Of a stretch of DNA of 64,000 nt, positions 23,924-58,961 are shown one piece after another. The position numbers and the translations under genes were made by a program. Within the stretch, counting starts at the first letter, position 1. Every line of letters starts with the position of its first letter. A model generated the notes under the pieces. That model did not search any database. It had not been told where the DNA came from and saw only the letters and a program-made list of their open reading frames with translations. This DNA is from Archangium lipolyticum (GTDB lineage: Bacteria > Myxococcota > Myxococcia > Myxococcales > Myxococcaceae): positions 310,001-374,000 of the forward strand of contig NZ_JANKBZ010000009.1 of the NCBI RefSeq assembly GCF_024623785.1, read 5' to 3'.

Positions 23924-24802
23924 ATGGCTCAGAAGAATCCCCGTGACGCAGGAGTGAAGCCCCCTCTGCCCGGCCAGGAGCAGGCACACCCGGGCATCGA
24001 GGCGCAGATGACACCCGAGCCGGACTACGGCCTCACGTCGTACAAGGGGCTGGGCCGGTTGAAGGACAGGGTGGCACTCGTCACCGGAGGGGACAGCGGC
24101 ATTGGCCGTGCGGTGTGCCTGGCCTTCGCGCGCGAGGGGGCCGACGTGGCCTTCGCGTACCTCAATGAGGACAAGGACGCCGAGCAGACGCGGCGCGTGG
24201 TGGAGGACTCGGGCCACCAGGTGCTCTCGCTCAAGGGCGACCTGACGGACGAGGCCGTATGCCGCCGCATCATCGAGGACACGGTGAAGCGCTTTGGCCG
24301 CATCGACGTGCTCGTCAACAACGCGGCCTTCCAGGGCAAGTCGGTGGAGAAGTTCGAGGAGCTCACGGCCGAGCGCATCGAGCGGACCTTCCGGACCAAC
24401 ATCCTCGCGATGTTCCACCTGGTGCGCTACGCGCTGCCGCACATGAAGTCCGGGGCCTCCATCATCAACGTGGCCTCCATCCAGGCGTACCAGCCCAACC
24501 CGGGCATTCTCGACTACGCGAGCACGAAGGGCGCCATCGTCACCTTCACCAAGGGGCTGGCGCAGGAGCTCATCGAGCGAGGCATCCGTGTCAACTCGGT
24601 GGCGCCGGGCCCCGTGTGGACGCCGCTGATTCCGCAGTCCTTCGACGCGGAGAAGGTGAAGTCGTTCGGCAAGAGCTCGCCGATGGGCCGGCCGGCGCAG
24701 CCGGTGGAGCTGGCGCCTTCGTTCGTGTTCCTCGCCTCGGACGAGTCGCGCTACGTGAACGGGGAGATTCTCGGCGTCACGGGTGGCCAGGTCCTCGCCT
24801 GA
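23924..24802 (+). CDS. SDR family oxidoreductase (YghA/GSP39-like)
   Basis: 292 residues. The long N-terminal extension with PPLPGQEQAHPG and MTPEPDYG is typical of the YghA/general-stress-protein-39 type SDR. NAD(P) motif TGGDSGIGRAVCLAFAREGADV, NNAAFQG, catalytic Ser in INVASIQAY and Tyr/Lys in YASTKGA, then the C-terminal NGEILGVTGGQVLA. Probably an NADP-dependent reductase for aldehydes or ketones under stress. Immediately after its stop lies a tRNA-like fragment, which marks the left edge of a mosaic region. Confidence 0.88.
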   Translation: MAQKNPRDAGVKPPLPGQEQAHPGIEAQMTPEPDYGLTSYKGLGRLKDRVALVTGGDSGIGRAVCLAFAREGADVAFAYLNEDKDAEQTRRVVEDSGHQVLSLKGDLTDEAVCRRIIEDTVKRFGRIDVLVNNAAFQGKSVEKFEELTAERIERTFRTNILAMFHLVRYALPHMKSGASIINVASIQAYQPNPGILDYASTKGAIVTFTKGLAQELIERGIRVNSVAPGPVWTPLIPQSFDAEKVKSFGKSSPMGRPAQPVELAPSFVFLASDESRYVNGEILGVTGGQVLA

Positions 24803-24826
24803 CAAACCGGGCCTTGCTCACGAGGG

Positions 24827-24854
24827 GCGGCGGGTTCGATTCCCGCCGCCTCCA
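24827..24854 (+). other. tRNA T-arm/3'-end-like fragment, copy 1
   Basis: Stem GCGGCGGG/CCCGCCGC closing loop TTCGATT, followed by CTCCA: T-arm and acceptor-3' strand of a tRNA, with no matching 5' half upstream. The identical 23-nt core occurs at 50122 and 53047 on the same strand with different acceptor tails. Read as an integrase attachment remnant. An integrase-like remnant ends exactly here on the minus strand. Confidence 0.6.
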
Positions 24855-25205
24855 CTCCGGAATTCCCGGAAAGGACTCAGCTTTCCGGGAGGCTGTGGCA
24901 AGGGATGTAGCAAGGCTCCGGGCGCCATCAGGCGAGCCGGGGTCTTCTTTTTCCGCTGAAGCCGCCAGCGGCAGCCGGGCGAACTGGCCTCGCTCGTGGC
25001 GCTGCACCTTGAGCTTCACCACCTCGGCGCAGAGGGCCTTCCACGGGAACGTGGTGTAGAGGTCGATGATGTTGCCGCTCTTGCGCGGGGTATGGGACGA
25101 GTCCGCGCGAAGGGAAATCCGCACGATGCCGGTCAGTCCCTTCTCCGCGAGATAGATGCTCACCCGTCGCGGATAGACACCGTAGCTCAGTTCGTAGAAC
25201 TTCAT
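24855..25205 (-). pseudogene. GST N-terminus fused to an integrase C-terminal remnant
   Basis: One open frame joins two unrelated pieces. From 25205 the first ~30 residues (MKFYELSYGVYPRRVSIYLAEKG) are the thioredoxin-fold start of a glutathione S-transferase. From about 25115 the frame continues NIIDLYTTFPWKALCAEVVKLKV...RHERGQFARLPLAA, which looks like the C-terminal tail of a myxobacterial phage/tyrosine integrase, and it runs into the tRNA-like fragment. Both genes are non-functional here. Together with the fragment this marks an element that inserted into, and then largely decayed from, a GST gene. The integrase assignment rests on pattern and position. Confidence 0.5.
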
Positions 25206-41989: not shown

Positions 41990-43972
41990 TCAGTCCTGGA
42001 TGCGGTACTTGTGGTGCGTGTACTCGGCGGCGAAGGAGTCGGTGAACCTCCCGCCGGAGTAGGGGATGGTGCGGTTCTCGCCAATCACCTCGATGGTGCC
42101 GCTCGCGGGCAGGCCGGGCGGCAGGGTGTAGGTGTACGTCCCGCTGGCGAACTGCCGCTTCTGCATGGCGAAGACGTAGGCGGCGTTGTCGCGGTACTTG
42201 AGCATCGTGCTCAGGTTCGGGTTGAACTGCCACACGTAGGACTGCGTGTTGAGCACCCGCGCGAGCGACTTCACCTCGGCGTTGATCTTCTTCACCCGGT
42301 CATGCGTGGCCTGGTAGGCGGCGCGTGTGTCATTGAGCACGTCCGGGGTCGACGGGTTCGCGGTGGAGTCAGAGAAGACGTGCGAGAAGTACGCGAGGAG
42401 GCGCGCCTCGTGGATGAGCGTGGACCACACCGCGCCCTCGATCTGGTTGGCGTTGATGACGCTCCCGGTGGCCACGCCGAGCCGCCACTTCGCCCGCGGG
42501 TCCGGCCCGTCCGCGCCGGAGAGGAACGTGGCCCGCTCCTCGTCCGACTGCCACATCAGCGCGCCCTTGCCGACGTTGGCGTAGATGAGGGCGTTCGGGT
42601 TGTTCAACTGCTCGTACTGGGTGTTGTAGACGGAGTAGCCGCAGGCGTGCGGCTGGTCCGGCACGCAGGTGTCGTACACCGCGTCGTTGACGTAGCCGGT
42701 CCACGGATTCCAGCCCGGGCCGCCCCACATGTCCACCTCGTCGTGGAAGGTCGTGCCGACCGACTCACCGCCCAGTCCGGTGCCGGCGAGGTTCCAGATG
42801 CCGTACTTCCGCATCCATGCGCCCGAGCTCTCGTTGGTGTTGTACACCTCGAGGAACGTGTTGATGCCGTGCGCCGCGTCGGTGCTGAAGCGCCACTCCT
42901 CGTCGGAGTACGCGCCCCAGTAGCCGATGGGGAAGAAGTCCTCGCGGGTCCACGGCGTGCCCGCCATGGCCGGGAAGCGCGCGTAGTACGACGGTCCGCC
43001 CTCCCACGGCACGCGCGGCAGGCTCAGCCCGGGGGGCGGCTGCTCCGAGGTCGTGGTGGCCGAGGCCGTATTGGACGCGGGGCCCAGGTTGCCGACGGCG
43101 TCACGGGCCCTCACCGTGTACGTGTAGAGCGTGGACGCCGCGAGCCCGACGTCCTTGTACGTGAGCGTGTTCCCGGAGACGGTGGTGAACTCCTCGCCGT
43201 TGCGGAAGAGGACGTAGGCCGTCACGCCGATGTCGTCCGTGGCCGCGGTCCAGGTGAGCTGGATGGCGCCCGCCGTGGACGGCGCCGCGGCGAGGGAGCC
43301 TGGAGCGGAGGGCGCGCCCGTGTCGGGGGTGGGGGAGAAGAGCACGTCCACGAAGTAGTTGGTGCTCTGGTAGCTCTGCGTGGGGAAGCCGCCGCTGCCA
43401 TAGAGATAGACGCCATTCTCGCCGTCCACGCCGGAGGCCAGCGCCGTCAGGGGGCCATTCGTGATGCCCTGGCTGGCGAAGGCGTTGTCCGTGGCCGAGT
43501 AGCGGCCGCGCGGCGCGAGGTACGAGGCGACGTACGTGGTGTTGGCGGAGATGCTCACCGGCGTGGCGAAGCGCACCATCTGCCACCCGGTGGCCGTCTC
43601 GTTGGTGAACGTCGCGGACGCGAGCCGCTGTCCCGAGCGGCTCCAGAGGCTGCCCACGTGCGTCCCACTGTTCGCCGAGCTGCCCTTGTAGAAGCGGACG
43701 CCCGCCACGGTGCCCGGGACGCTGGCGCGGAACTTCACGCCCAGCTCGACGGACGCCGTGTCCGGGTCCGCGAGGATGGCGGGGGTGACACTCGCGCCGA
43801 AGATGCTGGCCTCGGTCGCGAGGCGAGGGAGACGCCCCGCGGCTTCGGCATCAGCGCGAGCTGCAACGTCGCCGGCTTCTGCTGCTGCGTGACCCGCCCG
43901 AGCAGTGAGCCAGGCGGGAAGAGAAGCCGCGCAGCCCCTTGAAGTACACATCGGCCCTGGCCACCCTCCCAT
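41990..43972 (-). CDS. Glycosidase-like secreted protein with DUF4082 and Fn3 domains, 5' end doubtful
   Basis: Up to 660 residues. DUF4082-like domain (ASIFGASVTP... GVKFRASVPGTVAGVRFYKG, residues ~55-215), one fibronectin-III domain (~225-320, GAIQLTWTAATDDIGVTAYVLF), then ~340 residues beginning PWEGGPSYYARFPAMAG...FFPIGYWGAYSDEEW that look like a TIM-barrel glycosidase. The first ~50 residues have no signal peptide. An IS5 remnant lies 70 bp upstream of the ORF start, so the true 5' end was probably lost; the ORF may not be expressed. Confidence 0.6.
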   Translation of the reverse strand: MGGWPGPMCTSRGCAASLPAWLTARAGHAAAEAGDVAARADAEAAGRLPRLATEASIFGASVTPAILADPDTASVELGVKFRASVPGTVAGVRFYKGSSANSGTHVGSLWSRSGQRLASATFTNETATGWQMVRFATPVSISANTTYVASYLAPRGRYSATDNAFASQGITNGPLTALASGVDGENGVYLYGSGGFPTQSYQSTNYFVDVLFSPTPDTGAPSAPGSLAAAPSTAGAIQLTWTAATDDIGVTAYVLFRNGEEFTTVSGNTLTYKDVGLAASTLYTYTVRARDAVGNLGPASNTASATTTSEQPPPGLSLPRVPWEGGPSYYARFPAMAGTPWTREDFFPIGYWGAYSDEEWRFSTDAAHGINTFLEVYNTNESSGAWMRKYGIWNLAGTGLGGESVGTTFHDEVDMWGGPGWNPWTGYVNDAVYDTCVPDQPHACGYSVYNTQYEQLNNPNALIYANVGKGALMWQSDEERATFLSGADGPDPRAKWRLGVATGSVINANQIEGAVWSTLIHEARLLAYFSHVFSDSTANPSTPDVLNDTRAAYQATHDRVKKINAEVKSLARVLNTQSYVWQFNPNLSTMLKYRDNAAYVFAMQKRQFASGTYTYTLPPGLPASGTIEVIGENRTIPYSGGRFTDSFAAEYTHHKYRIQD

Positions 43973-44044
43973 GAGGTGCGCGGCAGTGGCCTGGCTCTCT
44001 TGGCCCGGGCGGCATAAGCCTCAGAGGATGTTGAAGTGGAGCAG

Positions 44045-45502: not shown

Positions 45503-45605
45503 GAAATGAGCGGGGTGGCTGGAGGATGGATGTCTCTGGGTGGGATGGGGAGCCACCGAGCATCCTCGGGGACTCCCCACCTGGCTTCGTCCTACCACCG
45601 GGATG

Positions 45606-46568
45606 TCATACTTTTCGCGGTGGGCGCGGGCTCGCGGGGCCCCGTGCGCCTTCCGGGGCCTCCCTCTTCTTCCGTGGCGCCGCCTCGCGGGCCACGTCCA
45701 CGAAGGCCCGCAGCGCGGGCGATACCTGCGCGCGGCTGGGGAAGTAGAGGAACAGGCCCGGCACCAACGCCGCGTAGGGCTCCAGCACCACGCGCAGGGT
45801 GCCTCGCCGCAGTTCCTCCGTCACCATGGGCTCGAACGCGTAGGCGAGCCCCACCCCGGCCTCCGCCATCCGCAGCAGCAGGTGGCTGTCCGAGGTGATG
45901 ACGGGCCCCCGTACCGGCACGCGCCAGCTCCGCGTCCCGCGCTCCAGCTCCCACTGGTAGATGCCTGACGTCGTGGTGGAGCGGATGCAGATGCACTCAT
46001 GGGACAGCAGGTCGTCCGGCGTCTCCGGCGTGCCCCTCCGCTCCAGGTACGAGGGCGCGGCCACCACCACGAACCGGCACGCATCCGACAGCCGGACCTG
46101 CACCATGTCCCGCTCGATGGACTCCGTCAGCCGGATCCCCGCGTCCAGCCCCTCGGCCACGATGTCCACCAGGCGGTCCTCCACCCGGACGTCCACCTCC
46201 ACCTTCGGGTAGCGCGCGAGGAACCGTGGCAGCAGCGGCGCGATGAGGGTGGACACCGCGATGGCGGGAACCGTCAGCCGCACCCGTCCCGTCACCTCCC
46301 CCGGCTGCACCGCGGCCGTCCTCAGCGCCTCCAGTGCCTGGTCCACCGCCGGCCCGGCGTTCTCCAGCAGGCGCTGCCCCGCCTCCGTCAGCGCCACGCT
46401 CCGGGAGGTCCGCGTGAGCAGGGGGACGCCAAGCCGTTCCTCGAGCTGGCGGACGGATTGGCTCAGCGCGGACGGAGAGATGCCGAGCTCGGTGGCGGCG
46501 GCCGTGAAGCCGCGCCTCCGGGCTACGGCGAGGAACGCATTCAGGGCATTGAGCGGGGTGAAGGCCAT
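45606..46568 (-). CDS. LysR family transcriptional regulator
   Basis: 320 residues. N-terminal winged HTH LNAFLAVARRRGFTAAATELGISPSALSQSVRQLEERLGVPLLTRTSRSVALTEAGQRLLE, then the substrate-binding domain (VRLTVPAIAVSTLIAPLL, GLDAGIRLTESIERDMVQVRL). Divergent from the alcohol dehydrogenase gene 114 bp away, its likely target. Arg/Pro/Lys-rich C-terminus. CrgA/DsdC-like subfamily. Confidence 0.88.
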   Translation of the reverse strand: MAFTPLNALNAFLAVARRRGFTAAATELGISPSALSQSVRQLEERLGVPLLTRTSRSVALTEAGQRLLENAGPAVDQALEALRTAAVQPGEVTGRVRLTVPAIAVSTLIAPLLPRFLARYPKVEVDVRVEDRLVDIVAEGLDAGIRLTESIERDMVQVRLSDACRFVVVAAPSYLERRGTPETPDDLLSHECICIRSTTTSGIYQWELERGTRSWRVPVRGPVITSDSHLLLRMAEAGVGLAYAFEPMVTEELRRGTLRVVLEPYAALVPGLFLYFPSRAQVSPALRAFVDVAREAAPRKKREAPEGARGPASPRPPRKV

Positions 46569-46682
46569 CTTGAAGTATTTCTAAATGGCCCATGTGGATC
46601 CTGCCAGTTTCGCCCGCTGTTCCCGGAGCGCATACCTGGGGGGCGTGACCCCCAGGCCACGAAAACCCCCAAGGAGAACCCC

Positions 46683-47735
46683 ATGCCGAAGACTCCTGCC
46701 TATGCCGCCCCCGCCGCTGGAAAGCCGCTGGCGCCCTTCTCGTTCGAGCAGCGCGAGGTCGGCCCCCATGACGTGCTCATCGACATCCTCTACTGCGGGG
46801 TCTGCCACTCCGACATCCACCAGGCTCGTGACGAGTGGGGCGGCGCCATCTTCCCCATGGTGCCGGGCCACGAGATCATCGGCCGCGTCAAGCAGGTGGG
46901 CCAGCACGTCACGAAGCTGAAGGTGGGCGACATGGCGGGCGTCGGCTGCATGGTGGACTCGTGCCGCGACTGCCAGACGTGCCGCCGGGACCTGGAGCAG
47001 TTCTGCGAGCGGGGCATGGCCGGCACGTACAACGGCACGTACATGGACCGGAAGACGCCGACCTACGGCGGCTACGCGTCTCGCATCGTCGTCACCGAGC
47101 ACTTCGCGCTGAAGGTGCCCGAAGGGCTCGACCCCGCTGCCGCCGCGCCGCTGCTGTGCGCCGGCATCACCACGTACTCGCCGCTGCGCCAGTGGAACTG
47201 CAAGAAGGGCGACCGCGTGGGCGTGGTGGGCCTGGGCGGGCTGGGCCACATGGCCGTGAAGCTCGCCGCGTCCATGGGCGCGGAGGTGACGGTGCTCAGC
47301 ACGTCCCGCACCAAGGAGGCCGACGCGCGCCGCCTGGGCGCCCAGGGCTTCGAGGTCACCAAGGACGCGGACACCTTCAAGAAGCTGTCGGGCCGCTTCG
47401 ACCTCATCATCGACACCATCTCCGCCCCGCATGACTACAACCAGTACCTGGGCATGCTGCGCCCCCAGGGCACCATGGTGGTGGTCGGCGTGCCGCCGGA
47501 GGCGGTGCCCGTGCACGCGTTCTCGCTCATCGGCGGGAACAAGCGCCTGGCCGGGTCGATGATCGGCGGCATCGCCGAGACGCAGGAGATGCTCGACTAC
47601 TGCGCGAAGCACAACATCGTGTCGGACATCGAGATCATCCCCATCCAGAAGATCAACGAGGCCTACGAGCGCATGATGAAGGGCGACGTGCGCTACCGCT
47701 TCGTCATCGACATCGCGAGCCTCGAGCGCGCGTAG
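46683..47735 (+). CDS. Zinc-dependent NAD(P) alcohol dehydrogenase (YahK/AdhC type)
   Basis: 350 residues. Catalytic zinc ligands in YCGVCHSDIH (Cys, His) and GHE; structural zinc CRDCQTCRRDLEQFC; nucleotide motif VGVVGLGGLGHMAVKLA. NADP-dependent cinnamyl/aldehyde reductase group (YahK-like, by GVCHSD and TYGGYASRIVV). AAGGAG 7 nt before the ATG. Reduces aldehydes to alcohols. Probably regulated by the divergent LysR gene. Confidence 0.93.
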   Translation: MPKTPAYAAPAAGKPLAPFSFEQREVGPHDVLIDILYCGVCHSDIHQARDEWGGAIFPMVPGHEIIGRVKQVGQHVTKLKVGDMAGVGCMVDSCRDCQTCRRDLEQFCERGMAGTYNGTYMDRKTPTYGGYASRIVVTEHFALKVPEGLDPAAAAPLLCAGITTYSPLRQWNCKKGDRVGVVGLGGLGHMAVKLAASMGAEVTVLSTSRTKEADARRLGAQGFEVTKDADTFKKLSGRFDLIIDTISAPHDYNQYLGMLRPQGTMVVVGVPPEAVPVHAFSLIGGNKRLAGSMIGGIAETQEMLDYCAKHNIVSDIEIIPIQKINEAYERMMKGDVRYRFVIDIASLERA

Positions 47736-47845
47736 CGGAGCCGCGGTCCTTTCCGCACCGGGTTCGTTGGGTACCGGCGGTGGCCGAGCTCCATCGCGAG
47801 GCGACTCCGCCTCCCGGACTGCGTGAGCCGGGGGGCGGAAGGCGT

Positions 47846-49039
47846 TCACGCACGCGGCTGGTTCCACTCCAGGCGGTACGAGTACATCTTCGATTGGCCG
47901 GAGGCGCCGAGCCGCAGGAAGAAGGGCAGCATCCGATCTCGAAACCACTCCGAGACCGCGCCGCTCACGGCCTTGCCGCTCCCGTTGCGGCGTGCGGCGC
48001 GGAAGATGGCGTCCACCCGAGGGCGACGGGCCTTCTCGAAGGCGGCGAAGGCCTTCTCCGGGGTGGGGATGTCTCGCAGGCATTGGGCCAGCACCAGCGC
48101 ATCCTCCATGGCGAGGGCCGCGCCCTGACCCGCGCTCGGAGACATCGCATGCGCGGCATCCCCCAGCAGGCAGACCCGGCCCGAATGCCACCGTGGCATC
48201 GCGTGCAGGTCATGGATGGGCCAGGGTCCCAGGAGTTCCGGCGTGGCGCGAATCACGTCGCCGACCCACGGCGGATCCTCCCGATGGAGTTCCAGGAGCC
48301 GCTCGCGCTCCCGGGAGGGATCCGGGTGCTTCCGGAGTGCCTCGAGGTCCGAGCTCCCGGGCGCGCCGTTGTGGAACCACCAGATCTCCCCCGACGGGGT
48401 AACGAAGGCGCCGAAGAAGGCCCGCCGCCCGAAGAGCATGAGGTTGACGCCCGGCGGCACGGGCACCTGGACGCCCCGGGCGAAGCCACCGTAATCGAGC
48501 AGCCCCGTGAAGCTCGGGGCCGGGGCGTCCGGGAGGAGCAGCGACCGCACCCGCGAGCGCAGCCCATCACAGCCGACGAGGATGTCCGCCGACGACTCCG
48601 AGCCATCCTCGAAGCGGGCAATGACGTGGCTCGGGTGGGACTCGTCCACGGCCACGAGCCGCTGGCCCCAGCGGATGTCCACGCCCTGCCGGGCGGCCTC
48701 CTCCGCCAGGATCGCGTTCAACTGTCCACGCCGGATCATCGTCAGGGGTCTGCCGAACGCGCTCACATCCCCGCTGCGATCAATGGCGCCGATGGTCTCT
48801 CCCCGGCGATTGATGAACTGGAACGATTCACACGGAGTTCCCGCCGCGGCCACGGCGGCGGCCACTCCCAGCGGCTCCAGGGCATTCATCCCGTTCGGAG
48901 CGACGCCCAGGAAGGCACCTTCCCCCACCGCCGCCGTCGGCCGGGCCTCGGTGATGGAGACCTCCAGCCCCAGTCGCTTGAGCCACATCCCCAGGACGGG
49001 TCCCGCGATGCCTCCCCCCACGATCAGCACTTTGCGCAT
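47846..49039 (-). CDS. FAD-dependent monooxygenase
   Basis: 397 residues of the p-hydroxybenzoate hydroxylase-like group: dinucleotide motif IVGGGIAGPVLGMWLKRLGLEV, DG motif GCDGLRSRVR and second FAD motif LLGDAAHAMSPSAGQGAALAMEDA. Resembles aromatic hydroxylases and tetracycline-type monooxygenases; substrate unknown. Divergent from a LysR gene 84 bp away; a T-N11-A LysR box sits in that gap. Confidence 0.9.
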   Translation of the reverse strand: MRKVLIVGGGIAGPVLGMWLKRLGLEVSITEARPTAAVGEGAFLGVAPNGMNALEPLGVAAAVAAAGTPCESFQFINRRGETIGAIDRSGDVSAFGRPLTMIRRGQLNAILAEEAARQGVDIRWGQRLVAVDESHPSHVIARFEDGSESSADILVGCDGLRSRVRSLLLPDAPAPSFTGLLDYGGFARGVQVPVPPGVNLMLFGRRAFFGAFVTPSGEIWWFHNGAPGSSDLEALRKHPDPSRERERLLELHREDPPWVGDVIRATPELLGPWPIHDLHAMPRWHSGRVCLLGDAAHAMSPSAGQGAALAMEDALVLAQCLRDIPTPEKAFAAFEKARRPRVDAIFRAARRNGSGKAVSGAVSEWFRDRMLPFFLRLGASGQSKMYSYRLEWNQPRA

Positions 49040-49095
49040 GTCTCTCGGCCTCCGTTCACCGCTTCATATGCGGAGAGACCGATTCACCTGCAGTG

Positions 49096-49110
49096 ATGAT
49101 TCGTGATCAT
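49096..49110. promoter_or_regulatory. LysR-type box
   Basis: ATGAT-N5-ATCAT, which contains the T-N11-A spacing (T49097, A49109), between the divergent FAD monooxygenase and LysR genes. It sits just before the LysR start, as in autoregulated LysR/target pairs. Confidence 0.5.
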
Positions 49111-49123
49111 ATCGTACACCGAT

Positions 49124-50056
49124 ATGAACCTATCCGCCCTCGACCTGAACCTGCTCCTCGTGCTGCACACGGTCCTCGAGGAGAAGAGCGTGGCGAAGGC
49201 GGCGGCGTCGCTGCACGTGACGTCCTCGGCGGTGAGCAATGCGCTCGGACGGCTGCGCGGCCTGTTGGGAGATCCCCTGCTGGTGCGCCATGGGCGCGGC
49301 CTGGTGCCCACTCGCCGGGCCACCGAGCTGGCCCCGCGCCTTCGTGCCGCGTTGAAGGAGTTGCAGGGCGCGCTGGAAGGAGCCGCCGCCCCTTTCGAGC
49401 CCGCTCGGACCGACCGGATGTTCACGCTGGCGTGCTCGGACAATGACCAGATTGCCCGGGTGCCCCGGATCGCCGCGGCCTTCTCGGCGCGGATGCCTCG
49501 CGCGACGCTGAGGATCGTCAGCATCGACCAGCTCGAGGCCACCGACGGACTCGCCAGTGGACAGGTGGATGCCGTCATCGGCCCGATCGAGGCCGCCGCG
49601 CCGGGTCTACACGCGGCGGAGCTGTATCGCGACGAAGCGGTGATGGTGGTCCGCCGGGATCACCCCAAGGTGGGCAAGCGGCTGTCGAAGCAAGCCTTCA
49701 ATGAACTCCGGCACGTGGACATCTGGCTCTCCATCGAAGGGCCAGGGGTGGGGCACCGCTTCATCGAAGGTTTCTTCCAACAGCACGGTCTGCGGCGGAC
49801 CGTCTCCCTGGTGGTGCCCAGCTTCGCCGCGGCGGCGATGGTCGCCGCGACCACCGACCTGCTCGCGGGCCTGCCGCGCCTCGTGGCGGAGGCACTCGCC
49901 CAACACCTGCCCCTGCGGATTCTCGAGCTGCCCGTGGCCCCACCGCCTTTCCAGATGCACCTGCTCTGGCACGAGCGCACGCATGCCGATGAAGGAGCAC
50001 GCTTCTTCCGGGAGCTCGTCCTCGGAGCCATGCGCCCTCCCGGAAAGGCAACGTAG
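49124..50056 (+). CDS. LysR family transcriptional regulator
   Basis: 310 residues. ATG 49124 chosen because NLSALDLNLLLVLHTVLEEKSVAKAAASLHVTSSAVSNALGRLRGLLGDPLLVRHGRGLVPTRRA is the canonical start of the NodD/SyrM-type subgroup. C-terminal sensing domain with DAVIGPIEAA and WLSIEGPGVG. Divergent from the FAD monooxygenase, the expected target. Confidence 0.88.
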   Translation: MNLSALDLNLLLVLHTVLEEKSVAKAAASLHVTSSAVSNALGRLRGLLGDPLLVRHGRGLVPTRRATELAPRLRAALKELQGALEGAAAPFEPARTDRMFTLACSDNDQIARVPRIAAAFSARMPRATLRIVSIDQLEATDGLASGQVDAVIGPIEAAAPGLHAAELYRDEAVMVVRRDHPKVGKRLSKQAFNELRHVDIWLSIEGPGVGHRFIEGFFQQHGLRRTVSLVVPSFAAAAMVAATTDLLAGLPRLVAEALAQHLPLRILELPVAPPPFQMHLLWHERTHADEGARFFRELVLGAMRPPGKAT

Positions 50057-50186: not shown

Positions 50187-50480
50187 CGCCGGTGGGACAC
50201 CTCCTTCCTCATGCTCGGCAACGGAGTGGGGCCCGTGGACCTGCACTACGGGACGCCGCGCGAGAATGCCGTGGACACGTTCGCGCTCGCGCTGGACGCC
50301 AGCGGGTTCCCCATCATCGCGTGGCTCAAGCAGACCTCGGTGCACTTCCCCAACGTCGTCATCCGGGCTTCGCGCTGGGATGGACAGGCGTGGGTGGCCA
50401 TGGGAGGGGCGCTCAACGAGGTGGCTTCTCCGGACTCGGTGGCCTCGAAGCCACGCCTGAGCTGGACGCGAGCGGCGTAA
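50187..50480 (+). pseudogene. C-terminal fragment of a secreted beta-propeller-like protein
   Basis: In-frame stretch ending at TAA 50478: DTFALALDASGFPIIAWLKQ followed by ASRWDGQAWVAMGGALNEVASP, resembling the repeat unit of myxobacterial secreted proteins (ALD..G.P..AW ... W.G..W...GG). No start or signal. The tRNA-like fragment lies 38 bp before it. Confidence 0.5.
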
Positions 50481-50543
50481 CAACGCCGGCATCACCCCAG
50501 GAATGATTGGTGACCGGTCCACTTCGTCCTGCATAGTACGAGG

Positions 50544-51587
50544 ATGAGCACAGTCCTGGTGACAGGTGGATCGGGTTTCATCGGCAGTCATTGTATCCTA
50601 CGGCTCCTGGCGGCGGGTCATCAGGTGCGCACCACGGTGCGCAGCCTCGAGCGCGAGGGCGACGTGCGCGCCATGTTGAAGCAAGGCGGTGCCGAACCGG
50701 GCGATCGCTTGTCCTTCGTCGCCGCTGACCTCGAGAACGACGCGGGCTGGCCGCAAGCCGTCGCCGGCTGCGAGTTCGTGCTGCACGTGGCGTCGCCCTT
50801 TCCTCCGAACATTCCCAAGAACGAGGAGGAACTGCTCGTGCCCGCGCGCGAAGGCGCTCTGCGCGTCCTGCGTGCCTCACGCGCCGCGGGTGTCAAGCGC
50901 GTGGTGCTGACCTCTTCGTTCGCGGCGATCGGCTATGGCCAGAATCCGCGAGGGACACCGTTCAACGAGTCGAACTGGACGGATCTCCAGGGCGATGACG
51001 TCATCCCCTACGTCAAATCGAAGACCCTGGCCGAACGCGCGGCCTGGGATTTCATCGCCAACGAAGGCGGCGGCTTGGAACTCTCCGTCATCAATCCGGT
51101 GGGCGTGTTCGGCCCGGTCCTGGGGCCTGACTACTCAACCTCGATCCTCATGGTGCAACGCCTGATGGACGGCGCCATGCCCGGGTGCCCGCGGCTCTAT
51201 TTCGGCATCGTCGATGTGCGAGATGTCGCCGACTTGCATATCCTCGCCATGGCTCATCCCGCGGCCAAGGGCGAACGCTTCCTCGCCGTCGCGGGCGATT
51301 TCATGCCGATCATCGGTATCGCCAAGGTGTTGAAGGACCGCATGGGCACATGGGCCAGACGCGTGCCGACCTTACAACTGCCCAACTGGCTGGTGCACCT
51401 CGCCGCGCTGCGAGACCCCGCGGTGCGTCAGATCCTGCCCGAGCTCGGCAAGACGAAAAACGCCACCAACGAAAAGGCCAGGCGGATGCTGGGTTGGGCA
51501 CCGCGCTCGAACGAGGAGTCCCTCGTTGCCACCGCCGAGAGTCTGGTGCGGCTCGGGCTTCTGAAGGACAGCCCGAAAAAAGGGTAG
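50544..51587 (+). CDS. NAD-dependent epimerase/dihydroflavonol-reductase-like protein
   Basis: 347 residues. Rossmann VLVTGGSGFIGSHCILRLLAAGHQVRTTVRS, LTSSFAAIGYGQNP, catalytic Tyr-Lys in YVKSKTLAE, and the motif NPVGVFGPVLGPDYSTS, all typical of dihydroflavonol-4-reductase/cinnamoyl-CoA-type extended SDRs. Reduces ketones or aldehydes; substrate unknown. Follows a 487-bp degenerate gap. Confidence 0.85.
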   Translation: MSTVLVTGGSGFIGSHCILRLLAAGHQVRTTVRSLEREGDVRAMLKQGGAEPGDRLSFVAADLENDAGWPQAVAGCEFVLHVASPFPPNIPKNEEELLVPAREGALRVLRASRAAGVKRVVLTSSFAAIGYGQNPRGTPFNESNWTDLQGDDVIPYVKSKTLAERAAWDFIANEGGGLELSVINPVGVFGPVLGPDYSTSILMVQRLMDGAMPGCPRLYFGIVDVRDVADLHILAMAHPAAKGERFLAVAGDFMPIIGIAKVLKDRMGTWARRVPTLQLPNWLVHLAALRDPAVRQILPELGKTKNATNEKARRMLGWAPRSNEESLVATAESLVRLGLLKDSPKKG

Positions 51588-51643
51588 GCCTATGTCCCTG
51601 GTGCCTCCGCCTCGGGCAAACCTCACGAAGCTCGGGCTCCCCC

Positions 51644-52633
51644 TCAATCCCTTGTAAAGGGGAACCCCGGAAGCGGGACAACCTTTACGCGCTCGTGGGT
51701 GTCGGGTCCCTGTTGGAAGAGCTCGCTCATGAATTGCTCGAGCATGTCGGCGGGGGATAGCGGAGCCTGGGTGCTCATCCAATCCGACAAGGCTTGCTGA
51801 AGCGCCTCGGCGGTCGGGTACCGGTCATCCCGTGCTCTGGCCAACGTACGCTGGAGGATCGCCAGGAGGGTCTCGTCCAGAGAGGGATTGAACTCCCGCG
51901 CGGGAACCAGCCGCCCCTCCACGGCATGGGAAAGCCGCTCGAACTCGGATTCACCGACACCGAACGGGAGGCCCCCGCACAACATCTGATACAGCACCAC
52001 GCCCACGACATAGACGTCCGAGCGGGCGTCCAGCACCTGTCCGAGCACCTGCTCGGGAGAGAAATAAACGACCTTGCCCCTCAACCTCCCCTCGTCCGGC
52101 GGCCACACCCTCCTGTCGATGCCGAAGTGGGAGATCTTCACCTCCCCCTCGAAGCTCACCAGCACATTGCCGCGATAGAGGTGCTGTCTGACGAAACCCA
52201 GAGGCACTCCCCGCGCGTCCAGCCGCGTGTGCAAATAGTGCATGCCCCGGCATATCTCGATGGCGATGCCCACGGCGATGGGCGCGGGCAACCATTTCTG
52301 ACCCCGCGCCCTGGCCCGATTCCGCACATGGCACAGGGAATGGCCATCCACCCATTCCAGGGCCAGGAAGTACTCGCCCGCCACCCGTCCGAAGTCGAGA
52401 ACCCGCACGAGGTTGTCGTGGCTGAGGTCCACCGCGATGCGGGCCGCATCGAGAAACATCTCGACGAACGCGGGGACTTCGGCGTTGTAGTCGTGCACCC
52501 GCTTGATGAATACATCCCGGGTAGCGCCGGACGCCGCCGTGTCGCGGGCCCGGTACCCCATCGACAATTCCCCCACGTTCAACCGCTCCAGCAATTCGTA
52601 CCTGCCGAACCGCGTCGTCTGGATGTCGGACAT
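51644..52633 (-). CDS. Ser/Thr protein pseudokinase
   Basis: 329 residues matching a bacterial Pkn-type kinase domain, but key catalytic residues are gone. Retained: ATP-site Lys44 (VFIKRV), Asn156 (RGNVLV), APE-type SPEQ. Changed: HRD reads Arg149-Gln150-His151, DFG reads His169-Phe-Gly, the alpha-C Glu is Ala63, and the Gly loop is LNVGELSMG. So no phosphotransfer is expected; a scaffold or regulatory role is likely. ATG 52633 is set by the kinase N-lobe start (FGRYELLERL). No membrane segment. Myxobacterial kinases of this type (FGRYELLERL, GEVKI.FGI) are numerous. Confidence 0.85.
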   Translation of the reverse strand: MSDIQTTRFGRYELLERLNVGELSMGYRARDTAASGATRDVFIKRVHDYNAEVPAFVEMFLDAARIAVDLSHDNLVRVLDFGRVAGEYFLALEWVDGHSLCHVRNRARARGQKWLPAPIAVGIAIEICRGMHYLHTRLDARGVPLGFVRQHLYRGNVLVSFEGEVKISHFGIDRRVWPPDEGRLRGKVVYFSPEQVLGQVLDARSDVYVVGVVLYQMLCGGLPFGVGESEFERLSHAVEGRLVPAREFNPSLDETLLAILQRTLARARDDRYPTAEALQQALSDWMSTQAPLSPADMLEQFMSELFQQGPDTHERVKVVPLPGFPFTRD

Positions 52634-53115
52634 GTCCGAGATGCTATCACCCCAGCCAACAGGCCCAAGCTCCTGCCGCGCACCGCTTGGGAGCGCGGCC
52701 TGGGCAGGCGTGTACACCCAAGGGGCTGCGCGGCCTCTGCACAGGCTGGGCGCACAACATGGCGTCCCGGGTTACGTCGTCTATGCGACCAGCGCCACCA
52801 CGGGCACGACCGCGCAGGATGGCGTCCGGATCGGCGGCGGCAATCTGTACAATGGCAACGTCAACAGATGAGCGGGTGGTGCGAGCGGGGCGCGGGAGGG
52901 GCTCAAGCAGAACCCCTCCCGCGGATGCGGCTCGCAGCGCTCAGCCCACCACGAGGTTGATGATGCGGCCGGGAGAGCCGCTGTGACGTGCTTTGCTACA
53001 TTGCTACAGCAGGCCCGCGCTGGAGCGCTCTTGCCGGAAGCCTCCAGCGGCGGGTTCGATTCCCGCCGCTTCCATACAAGTCTTTTCTGGCATGGTCCCC
53101 AAGGCCCGAGGGGGC
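52634..53115. other. 482-bp degenerate region
   Basis: Plus strand has an unrecognised C-terminal fragment (GVPGYVVYATSATTGTTAQDG..., stop near 52869). Copy 3 of the tRNA-like fragment is at 53047. No intact gene. Confidence 0.5.
53047..53074 (+). other. tRNA T-arm/3'-end-like fragment, copy 3
   Basis: Same GCGGCGGG/CCCGCCGC hairpin and TTCGATT loop, acceptor-like tail TTCCA. No 5' half. Right limit of the mosaic region that starts at copy 1. Confidence 0.55.
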
Positions 53116-55424: not shown

Positions 55425-58400
55425 TCAGGGCGTGTAGAGCTCCACCGAGGAGAGATAGCCGCCTCCGGTGCCAGTGCCCCCCGAGATGAGCACCTTCCCG
55501 GAGGGCAGCCGGGTGGCGTTGTGGCCGGAGCGTGCCGTGGTCAGGGGCGCGGTGGAGGACCAGGAGTTGGTGGCCGGGTCGTACACCTGCACGGAGGTGA
55601 TGGGCTTGTCCGCGTTATCGGCCCCGCCCGAGATGAGCACCTTGCCGGAGGGGAGCAGGGTGTCAACGTGTCCCGAGCGTTCCACGGCCAGAGAACCCGC
55701 CGGGGACCAGGAGTTGGTGGCCGGGTCGTACACCTCCGCGGTCGCGAGATGACTGTTGTAATAGTTGTACTGGCCCCCCACGACGAGCACCTTGCCGGAC
55801 GCGAGCAGCGTCGAGGTATGGGCGTAACGGACCGAGGCCATGGAAGCAACGCGGGACCAGGAGTTGGTGGCCGGGTCGTACACCTCCGCGGTGGAGAAGA
55901 AGCCGGCACCATAGCCCCCCGTGACCAGCACCTTGCCGGACGGGAGCAGGGTGGCCATGTGCAGGTAACGCACCGAGGTCATGGACGCAGCGGGGGACCA
56001 GGAGTTGGTGGCCGGGTCGTACACCTCCACGGAGGAGAGGAAGCTGCCGTTGTACCCACCGGTAACGAGCACCTTGCCGGAGGAGAGCCGGGTAGCGGTG
56101 TGGCCGAAGCGTGCCGCTGCCATGGAGCGGGCGGAGGACCAGGAGTTGGTGGCCGGGTCGTACACCTCCGCAACGGAAGTAGCACCGTTGTTGTATCCGC
56201 CTGCGATGAACACCTTGCCGGACGAGAGCAGGATGGCCGGAGCGGAGCTGTGGGGCGAGGCCATGGGGCCGGTGGAGGACCAGGAGTTGGTGGCCGGGTC
56301 GTAGAGCTCTGCGGAGGTGAGCATGCTGCTATTCTGGCCCGCCGCGACGAGCACCTTGCCAGAGAGCAGCAGGGTGGAGGTGTGGTTGGCGCGCGGCGTG
56401 ACCATGGAGCCCGCCGACGTCCCCCCTCCGGATACAGGCGGCGGACGGAAGACCACGGACACCGTGTTGGTCTGACACAGGATGGCACCCGAGGCATTCT
56501 TGATGACGGCGTAGCGTGTGTAGTTGCCCTCGAGGCCAGGCGCGTTGGTGTAGGTGAAGCTGCCGGAAGCGGCACCAATCGGCTGATTCACCGCATCCGT
56601 CACCCCGTTCTTGGTGCCATTCCAATAGGCGCCAGCACCCGCGGGCACGAGGCCCGACACGCTGATGGTGAGGATCATCGAGCCGCCAGAGGGCACATCA
56701 TGGCTGCTGGAGGACAGCGAGCAGCTCAGCGTCCCTCCACCGCCGCCCGAGCCGCCCGAGCCGCCCGAACCGGAGCAGGAGGTGGTGGCGCACCGGCAGA
56801 AGCCGCCGTAGGGGGCATTGCCGGTGCAATAGAGGCCGCTCTGACACTGGGACGAGCCGTGGCAGATGCTCCCCACCCCTCCCAATGGCCTGCAGGAGCC
56901 CCGGAGCGAGCCAGGGTAGGAAATGGGAGTGGAGCAATAGAGGCCGCTCTGGCACTCACCTGAGTTGGCGCAGGTCGTCCCATTCCCTCCCAGGGCCCGG
57001 CAGATGCCCTCGGAGAGACAGTAGAGGCCGCTCTCGCACTGAGACGTGCTGGAGCACCGCGCCCCCGCCCTTCCCCGAGGGACACTCACGGCCCACGCGG
57101 TGAAGTGCGGGACATCCACCACCCAGCTCAGGCGATCAGGGTCCGTGCTGGACGGCTGGATGTTGCCAGCCCCCTGCTCATGCCAGGCGTAGTCCGACAA
57201 GTCGAGCCACCACGCGGGAATCGTCTCTCCCGCGGGGTGACTGCTTGCCCAGGCGTCAGGCAATTCGAGTTCGAGCCTCACCCTCTTTCCCGGGGCCACC
57301 TGAGCGGAGGCGCCGTTGGACCAGAGGCTGACCTCGGCCATGCGCAGGTCTCCGAGATCCACCGGCTCCCCATCCGCCTCGCGCACGCCAATCCCAGGGC
57401 CAGGGAGCGCGGCGGGGTCAACGGTCGAGTCCAGTGAAGCGATGGTTACCTGCACGTCTCCCGTGACGGGGTTGCCCAGGGCATCCACGACGGCTTCGGG
57501 AGGAAAAGTGAGACGCACCCCCGGCACCTGGAGGGTTCCCCCCCGCCCGGCGTCGAGCGAGAGAGGCTCGCCCAGGGCGAGCAGCCGGATGCCACGGAGG
57601 ACGAGCCCCTCCGCCTGCAACGGCACGATAGCGACCGCCGGGGCATGGCCGGGCGCCTCCACTCGCACCCGCAGCTGCTCCCCTGTCAAACCCTCGAAGA
57701 GCTGGCGCCCCAGGCCATCGACGGAGAAGGTCGCATCCATCGCATGGATTGCCGCCGTGGGGATGGGCCGGCCGGAGACGTCCAGGACCTGCAGGAGAAC
57801 GCTGGTACTCGCGGGGTTCGCCGATGCGGGAGGCGTATAGCGCTCCGCGGAAGACTGGTTGCCATTGCTGACGCCGCCCGCCACAAGCACCTGGCCCCCC
57901 TCCAGGAACGCCGCCGTGTGCTGATAACGCCCCACCGCCATGTGGCCCGCGGGCTGCCAGGCCGCCATGGCGGGGACATACAGCTCGGCGGAAGTCTGGA
58001 TTCCGGTGTGCTCGTGGTAGCCGCCCACCACGAGCACCTGGCCATCGGGCAGCAACGAGGCCGAGTGGTGGCGGCGCGGCAAAGCCATGCTGCCAGTGTT
58101 TATCCAGGTACCCGTATCCGGCGAGTACAGCTCCGCCGACACGCCGCCGCGCCACTCCTCCCCGCCTCCACCCGTGACCAGCACCTGGCCGCCGAGCAGC
58201 ATGGTGGCGGTGTGGCCGGTGCGAGCCACCTTCATCGAGCCCACGGCATGCCAGGTTCCGGTGGCCGGGTCATACAGCTCCGCGGTGTTCACGCGCACGC
58301 CCGCCGAGTCGGTGCCGCCCGCCACCAGCACCTTGCCGTCGAGAAGCAGGGTCGCGGTGTGGTTGCGGCGCGCCGTGCCGAGGGCGCCGGTGGAGGTCCA

Positions 58401-58961
58401 GAGCCCGCTCTCCGGGTCATACACCTCGGCCGCAGCCAGGGTCTCTCCGTCACCGCCTCCGCTGACTCCGCCGGCGACCAGCACCTTGCCGCCGGGCAGC
58501 GGCGTGGCCGTATGTTGGCGACGAGGGTGGAGCAGCGCCCCCGTCGGTTGCCAGGTTTCAGCGGCGGGGTCATAGAGCGCCGCGGAGACACTGGGGTTCC
58601 AGTCGCCCGCTCCCGCCACCAGCACCTTGCCGTCGGGCAAGCGGGTAGCGGTCGCCTCCCGATAGGGATTGGGGGCATCGGCGACACCGCGCCAGAGGCC
58701 GGTCGCTGGATCATAGACCTCGGTGGAGACGTTATACCCACCGACGACGAGGACCTGACCATTCTCCAGGACCGTGGCGGTATGGAGCAGTCGAGCACGG
58801 GCCAAGTCGCCAGCCGGGCTCCACGTCCCTTCATCGGTGGTGCTCCCCTGCCGCATCGAGACGTGGGGGAATGACACCTTCGCTGGCTGCTCCGTACTGG
58901 AACAGCTTGTCAGGAAGAGGCCGAGAAAAAACAGCAGACCTGTTCGTGGATATCGTCGCAC
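55425..58961 (-). CDS. Two-propeller kelch lipoprotein with cysteine-rich centre
   Basis: 1178 residues, GTG start with GGAGA upstream. Lipobox LFLTSC (Cys20). First kelch-type propeller at ~45-375: seven repeats of ~50 residues with HTAT/HSAS, LLPDGKVLVAGG and AE(L/V)YDPATG..W. Then a carboxypeptidase-regulatory-like domain (~390-450), a beta region around 460-560 (ZU5-like), and a cysteine-rich block (~630-735: CSSTSQCESGLYC, three repeats). A Gly/Ser linker (~740) leads to an Ig-like domain (~755-840), then a second seven-repeat propeller (~855-1178). Outer-membrane surface protein, probably for adhesion or binding. Confidence 0.88.
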   Translation of the reverse strand: MRRYPRTGLLFFLGLFLTSCSSTEQPAKVSFPHVSMRQGSTTDEGTWSPAGDLARARLLHTATVLENGQVLVVGGYNVSTEVYDPATGLWRGVADAPNPYREATATRLPDGKVLVAGAGDWNPSVSAALYDPAAETWQPTGALLHPRRQHTATPLPGGKVLVAGGVSGGGDGETLAAAEVYDPESGLWTSTGALGTARRNHTATLLLDGKVLVAGGTDSAGVRVNTAELYDPATGTWHAVGSMKVARTGHTATMLLGGQVLVTGGGGEEWRGGVSAELYSPDTGTWINTGSMALPRRHHSASLLPDGQVLVVGGYHEHTGIQTSAELYVPAMAAWQPAGHMAVGRYQHTAAFLEGGQVLVAGGVSNGNQSSAERYTPPASANPASTSVLLQVLDVSGRPIPTAAIHAMDATFSVDGLGRQLFEGLTGEQLRVRVEAPGHAPAVAIVPLQAEGLVLRGIRLLALGEPLSLDAGRGGTLQVPGVRLTFPPEAVVDALGNPVTGDVQVTIASLDSTVDPAALPGPGIGVREADGEPVDLGDLRMAEVSLWSNGASAQVAPGKRVRLELELPDAWASSHPAGETIPAWWLDLSDYAWHEQGAGNIQPSSTDPDRLSWVVDVPHFTAWAVSVPRGRAGARCSSTSQCESGLYCLSEGICRALGGNGTTCANSGECQSGLYCSTPISYPGSLRGSCRPLGGVGSICHGSSQCQSGLYCTGNAPYGGFCRCATTSCSGSGGSGGSGGGGGTLSCSLSSSSHDVPSGGSMILTISVSGLVPAGAGAYWNGTKNGVTDAVNQPIGAASGSFTYTNAPGLEGNYTRYAVIKNASGAILCQTNTVSVVFRPPPVSGGGTSAGSMVTPRANHTSTLLLSGKVLVAAGQNSSMLTSAELYDPATNSWSSTGPMASPHSSAPAILLSSGKVFIAGGYNNGATSVAEVYDPATNSWSSARSMAAARFGHTATRLSSGKVLVTGGYNGSFLSSVEVYDPATNSWSPAASMTSVRYLHMATLLPSGKVLVTGGYGAGFFSTAEVYDPATNSWSRVASMASVRYAHTSTLLASGKVLVVGGQYNYYNSHLATAEVYDPATNSWSPAGSLAVERSGHVDTLLPSGKVLISGGADNADKPITSVQVYDPATNSWSSTAPLTTARSGHNATRLPSGKVLISGGTGTGGGYLSSVELYTP

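Follow-up and report, generated by a model that had tools for sequence, protein, structure and literature searches.

A pseudokinase of Archangium lipolyticum belongs to a loosely constrained clade of kinase-only myxobacterial proteins

Does a gene that encodes a protein kinase fold deprived of most of its catalytic residues still make a regulator, or is it a gene on its way out? The question is raised by a locus of Archangium lipolyticum, within the 64,000-nucleotide stretch of DNA that was analysed (hereafter the window). The gene occupies positions 51644–52633 on the reverse strand, starts with an ATG at 52633 and has 329 codons plus a stop; its product is designated P0001. A longer reading from a GTG at 52717 is possible, and M1 of the 329-residue protein aligns with the starts picked for its relatives. 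The source genome is 12.6 Mb in size, and 155 kinase matches were counted in it.

P0001 is a member of the protein kinase superfamily, of the Hanks Ser/Thr type. It matches PF00069 (E 1.1e-20), and the predicted structure is an intact kinase fold (mean pLDDT 87.5, pTM 0.87); the nearest solved structure to this model is PknB of Mycobacterium tuberculosis (5u94), with a TM-score of 0.89 by target length and 0.72 by query length, and the nearest solved structures by sequence are StkP and PknB. An earlier reading of the locus from its letters alone (the sequence-only reading) had held that the fold is preserved, and the domain match and the model agree with it. P0001 is like the PknB-like kinases in this bilobal fold and in the PF00069 match; it differs from them in having no alpha-C Glu, HRD Asp or DFG Asp, and in ending before the C-terminal part that its relatives carry. 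As to a possible anti-phage kinase, the score against MAD6 is 78.6 bits, short of the NCBIfam cut-off of 460, and the PADLOC matches are broad (29 families, mostly PD-T4-6 kinase models, with a best E of 1.2e-44 and models that carry no cut-off), a breadth that suggests generic kinase similarity.

The catalytic motifs were located by alignment with relatives, and all of the substitutions that had been read from the sequence are confirmed. The beta-3 ATP lysine is kept as Lys44 (in FIKR; 52502–52504, reverse strand, as are all parts of the gene), the alpha-C Glu is replaced by Ala63 (in FLDAAR; 52445–52447), HRD by Arg-Gln-His at residues 149–151 (52181–52189), and DFG by HFG at residues 169–171 (52121–52129); N156 aligns with the Asn of the relatives. 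The glycine-rich loop is degraded as well (residues 19–26, NVGELSMG; 52556–52579), with GELS in the columns where relatives have GGMA, the pattern in active relatives being G-x-GGMA-x-V. Of the 68 other distinct relatives that were aligned (the rows left after duplicates and self rows were dropped), 67 have the Asp of HRD and that of DFG alike, and the one that does not, L074, is itself a member of the degenerate clade of P0001, described below. Among 60 of the 155 kinase matches in the P0001 genome—a biased sample from the higher-scoring matches listed, which do not include P0001—the DFG Asp is absent from none and the HRD Asp from one. That one, L224 (G000:C5:76950-77950), reads HHN for HRD and has an intact DFG.

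Of the four residues of an active Ser/Thr kinase (beta-3 Lys, alpha-C Glu, HRD Asp and DFG Asp), P0001 thus keeps the Lys alone. A pseudokinase, in the passage of PMC12599244 that defines it, has at least one of the beta-3 Lys, HRD Asp and DFG Asp missing; two of these three are gone from P0001, and the pseudokinase signature claimed for it holds; it also falls within a clade of ten, no member of which has kept the alpha-C Glu or the DFG Asp. From what is known of kinase chemistry, a protein with neither the HRD Asp nor the DFG Asp should not transfer phosphate.

The clade was recovered from a search of 96 genomes of the family, which yielded ten degenerate, kinase-only proteins spread over four genera: P0001 (genus group g1); L102, L107 and L110 (g38); L103, L104, L105 and L131 (g33); and L109 and L074 (g17). 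Members were found in three of the 27 g38 genomes. All ten rows have the alpha-C Glu and the DFG Asp replaced, have no C-terminal part and fall in a single clade, with long branches as a caution on this last point. The alpha-C position is Asp in L102, and the first DFG position is Glu in L103, L104, L105 and L131. The HRD Asp is replaced in eight members (by Glu in L102, L105, L107 and L131) and kept in L103 and L104; the ATP lysine is replaced in five and kept in P0001, L103, L104, L105 and L107; and the equivalent of N156 is kept in five. Judged from these acid-for-acid swaps, other members of the clade may be less dead than P0001, which has no acid at the sites concerned. Outside the family, no further members were seen at E up to 1e-85 among the matches listed from 195 genomes of the phylum, and 26 loci recovered from the genome collection by a peptide-pattern search all have the HRD Asp and the DFG Asp.

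The retention of K44 and N156 in P0001 is what would be expected of a non-standard enzyme or nucleotide binder, in which these two residues work together with others that replace the lost acids, and kinase folds with other chemistry have precedents in SidJ, SdjA and SelO (PMC12599244). We consider it highly improbable that P0001 is such a protein: K44 and N156 are each kept in just half of the clade, and the glycine loop and the catalytic loop are the parts that have lost most conservation relative to active kinases, the similarly variable tail aside.

Two trees were computed. In the first (55 rows and all columns, 35 of 90 rows having been left out) the ten proteins are split from all others by a branch supported at 100/100, and in the second, from which the columns of the glycine loop, lysine, alpha-C, catalytic loop and DFG were removed and further rows dropped to leave 39, the support is 100/99. 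The nearest active kinases to the clade in the first tree are L075, L076, L077 and L080 (93/87); placement of P0001 with these four was rejected by the AU test (p 0.006), a rejection weakened by the long branches. A single origin of the clade appears likely from these trees rather than proven, and long branches (L102 and L110) may inflate the one-clade result.

From the starts picked, the clade proteins are 307–341 residues long and end near the juxtamembrane stretch, before the C-terminal part. Four active relatives were scanned for domains; three have a PEGA match after the kinase domain (L075, L076 and L036) and two have TPR matches below the cut-off (L036 and L078). Hydropathy after the kinase domain reaches a 19-residue mean of at least 2.0 in 16 of 23 active relatives and lies at 1.6–1.95 in the other seven, among them the closest three. 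A membrane anchor in the active relatives is likely from this hydropathy scan. The most hydrophobic 19 residues of P0001 begin at residue 209 (mean 1.64) and lie inside a kinase-domain helix. P0001 would be soluble and derived from a myxobacterial Ser/Thr kinase that was probably membrane-bound and whose kinase domain, to judge from the relatives, led into a C-terminal part of PEGA and/or TPR-like type. Loss or replacement of the DFG Asp, of the alpha-C Glu and of all that follows the juxtamembrane stretch would date to a single ancestral lineage, with the HRD Asp and the ATP lysine disappearing afterwards in some members.

Comparison with known pseudokinases was made by description. Among the 99 kinases of Myxococcus xanthus there are 11 reported pseudokinases, and seven pseudokinases fall in its developmental expression groups (PMC6791715), and P0001 is alike, by description and not by sequence, in being a myxobacterial Hanks-type pseudokinase. 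Seven families of bacterial Ser/Thr pseudokinases (ActPs1–3, GLW, CP1, DYD and DLHK) are named in PMC12599244, where bacterial pseudokinases are called largely unexplored experimentally. P0001 resembles these in having a bacterial kinase fold with degraded catalytic motifs, and it differs from some of them by the descriptions given there and not by sequence comparison. GLW pseudokinases have GLW for HRD and a membrane segment after the kinase domain, whereas P0001 has RQH and ends at residue 329; ActPs2 proteins have Arg for the beta-3 Lys, Asn for the HRD Asp and, in about 90%, a long activation-loop insertion, whereas P0001 has Lys44, His151 and no insertion; and about 60% of ActPs1 proteins are without alpha-G, whereas the P0001 model has a helix at residues 230–239 that was assigned by eye to alpha-G. 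The terms Myxo and Deltaproteobacteria are absent from the main text of PMC12599244, and the main text of PMC7694542, which covers signalling genes in Myxococcaceae, does not contain the word pseudokinase. No description of the P0001 clade was found in a literature search outside which the 2008 myxobacterial kinome paper lies. The clade is a new lineage of a known kind of protein, the bacterial pseudokinase.

A protein search at E 1e-70 found no counterpart of P0001 in the five other genomes of the genus. A DNA search recovered fragments of the gene, 95–96% identical, in a second genome of the genus, G003, and this copy is the only remnant in other genomes of the genus among the matches listed. 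The fragments correspond to positions 51627–51676, 51753–51937 and 52121–52316 of the window (an overall span of 51627–52316, reverse strand); the copy is at a different place in its genome, its first part and two internal stretches are missing, and its frame is broken. It reads RQD and HFG. Sequencing error is ruled out as the source of the lost motifs by the RQ and HFG that the two copies share, and these most simply predate the split between P0001 and G003; the change of the HRD Asp to His lies most simply on the P0001 branch, because Asp stands at this site in 16 of 16 active relatives. The substitutions noted earlier recur in the G003 copy as far as RQ and HFG are concerned, and not as far as the HRD Asp is concerned, which that copy keeps.

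Over 126 aligned codons P0001 and the G003 copy differ at 15, partly through changes contributed by the dead copy, and 13 of the 15 are amino acid-changing (NG86 dN 0.052, dS 0.031). The corresponding counts for four neighbouring genes of the window compared with G003 are 7/29, 10/27, 29/96 and 27/67, with ratios of 0.10–0.25; a row for ADH was left out, its coordinates falling in the wrong frame. The probability of 13 in 15 is 0.12–0.19 if both copies are neutral and 0.015–0.033 if P0001 evolves at a dN/dS of 0.15 and the G003 copy is neutral. Position 131 is Leu in all 25 other relatives and in G003 and is Met in P0001 alone, and for His132 and Pro244 a change on the G003 branch is the simplest account; the other nine positions fit either branch, so that the rates of the two branches are not separable.

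The excess of amino acid-changing differences and the loss of the HRD Asp on the P0001 branch are both what plain decay would produce, that is, a gene without function observed before its first stop codon. We find this explanation doubtful, as ten separate open frames over deep divergence, together with a conserved C-lobe, need past selection; moreover, codons 248–293 of P0001 differ less from G003 (2 of 138 bases, as against 15 of 240 elsewhere; P 0.037, in a region chosen post hoc). When the P0001 gene was evolved neutrally in 300 simulated runs, 2–8% remained stop-free at 0.3–0.49 amino acid changes per site, the range of the P0001 branch in both trees, with frameshifts uncounted. Since so few runs stay free of stops, neutral drift fails to explain the clade.

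Selection on the clade was compared with that on active relatives using pairs that, like the sequences of the regional comparisons (6 and 8), were picked by hand. NG86 dN/dS is 0.53–0.91 in five pseudokinase pairs versus 0.06–0.29 in seven active pairs; YN00 values are lower, at 0.17–0.52 in the pseudokinase pairs versus 0.01–0.07 in five of the seven active pairs. On these estimates the constraint on the clade is loose, with a dN/dS several times that of the active relatives. It is also uneven along the protein. Residues 187–290 (51764–52075), a C-lobe stretch that includes APE and alpha-F to alpha-I (helices named by eye), are conserved across the clade: of the sites conserved in 16 active kinases, a fraction of 0.89 is kept here (26 sites) versus 0.55 elsewhere (90 sites), and none of 10000 permutations gave a contrast as high, the contrast having been chosen after seeing the data and the sites not being independent. 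By region, the fraction kept is highest, at 0.91, both between APE and alpha-F (15 sites) and between alpha-H and alpha-I (8); it is 0.76 for alpha-D to alpha-E (14) and 0.73 for alpha-G (3), and it falls to about half in the N-lobe (0.52; 49 sites), the catalytic/DFG region (0.51; 24) and the activation loop (0.50; 3). Four residues, R77, L79, R174 and V209, are each common to eight or nine of the ten pseudokinases and absent from the 16 active kinases.

The sequence-only reading had deemed a scaffold or allosteric role likely, and in its full form this would make P0001 a functional signalling pseudokinase under present selection, regulating Ser/Thr kinases. An open frame and a C-lobe kept over long branches speak for such a role, the four residues shared only by the pseudokinases hint at a maintained design, and the M. 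xanthus pseudokinases in developmental expression groups offer a parallel. Set against these are the weak constraint, the broken copy in G003 and the surroundings: the pseudokinase is the sole kinase-like frame in each of the ten neighbourhoods (16–64 kb), with no partner kinase nearby, and there is no close active counterpart in the P0001 genome among the matches listed, the best other match being 43% identical. Because the constraint is weak, no kinase is nearby and the G003 copy is broken, a scaffold or allosteric role does not follow from pseudokinase status, and we judge its full form unlikely. What stands of the claim is some retained non-catalytic role, which is supported by the persistence of the frame through long divergence and by the conserved C-lobe.

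The reading that we adopt, with moderate confidence, is that P0001 is a catalytically dead, loosely constrained kinase remnant, probably acting, if at all, by C-lobe binding, and being lost. With the frame and the C-lobe kept for so long, the likeliest action would be binding, in which the C-lobe face (P+1/APE and alpha-F to alpha-I) might touch other kinases or substrates as a decoy or docking partner. With constraint now loose, the gene would appear dispensable: it is scattered across genera, broken in G003 and marked by near-neutral-looking changes. Missing catalytic motifs alone, as P0001 cautions, do not reveal function. With its close active relatives, its members at different stages of catalytic loss and the broken copy in the genus of P0001, the clade lets one ask directly under which circumstances a dead kinase regulates and under which it is just a gene on the way out.

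In genome G092 the locus of L102 (L102:8260-9767) is flanked by a conserved block on either side. Active kinases (L075, L076 and L077) occupy the same slot in G082, G079 and G076, and the blocks are 38–86 bases apart in G093, G090, G081 and G078; 13 of 14 further g38 loci gave no kinase match, and the other (L161) gave a weak 46-residue match off the slot. The slot is thus variable across g38 species: it is filled by an active kinase, by a pseudokinase or by other DNA, or is almost empty. The presence of L102 in a slot of active kinases would fit local decay over a single origin, but the grouping of L102 with the active kinases of its own slot was rejected by the AU test (p 0.0003), again weakened by long branches. 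We offer as a speculation that soluble pseudokinases cut off from membrane kinases could act by a preserved C-lobe on myxobacterial kinases, as fast-evolving decoys or docking partners, and could come and go as accessory genes do; this slot, with active kinases in three species, one pseudokinase in a fourth and no kinase in others, would then be a natural series of kinase loss.

Around the P0001 gene, no Rfam match at gathering score was found between 50000 and 56000 of the window, and there is no tRNA at the gene, the only one in the window being at 24763–24855. Between 44000 and 62000, gene-sized blocks match G003 at 92–99% identity but at far-apart places (for example 45605–47737, 47864–50056 and 50467–51589), and from these matches the neighbours look as if assembled from many sites. 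Immediately upstream of the P0001 gene is an intergenic repeat of about 100 bases (52653–52759); a weaker copy, at 79%, lies at 43922–44004, and G003 and G004 have copies of 88–91%. At 55425–58961 the window encodes a Kelch-repeat protein of 1178 residues, with many DNA matches of about 65–70% across the genus.
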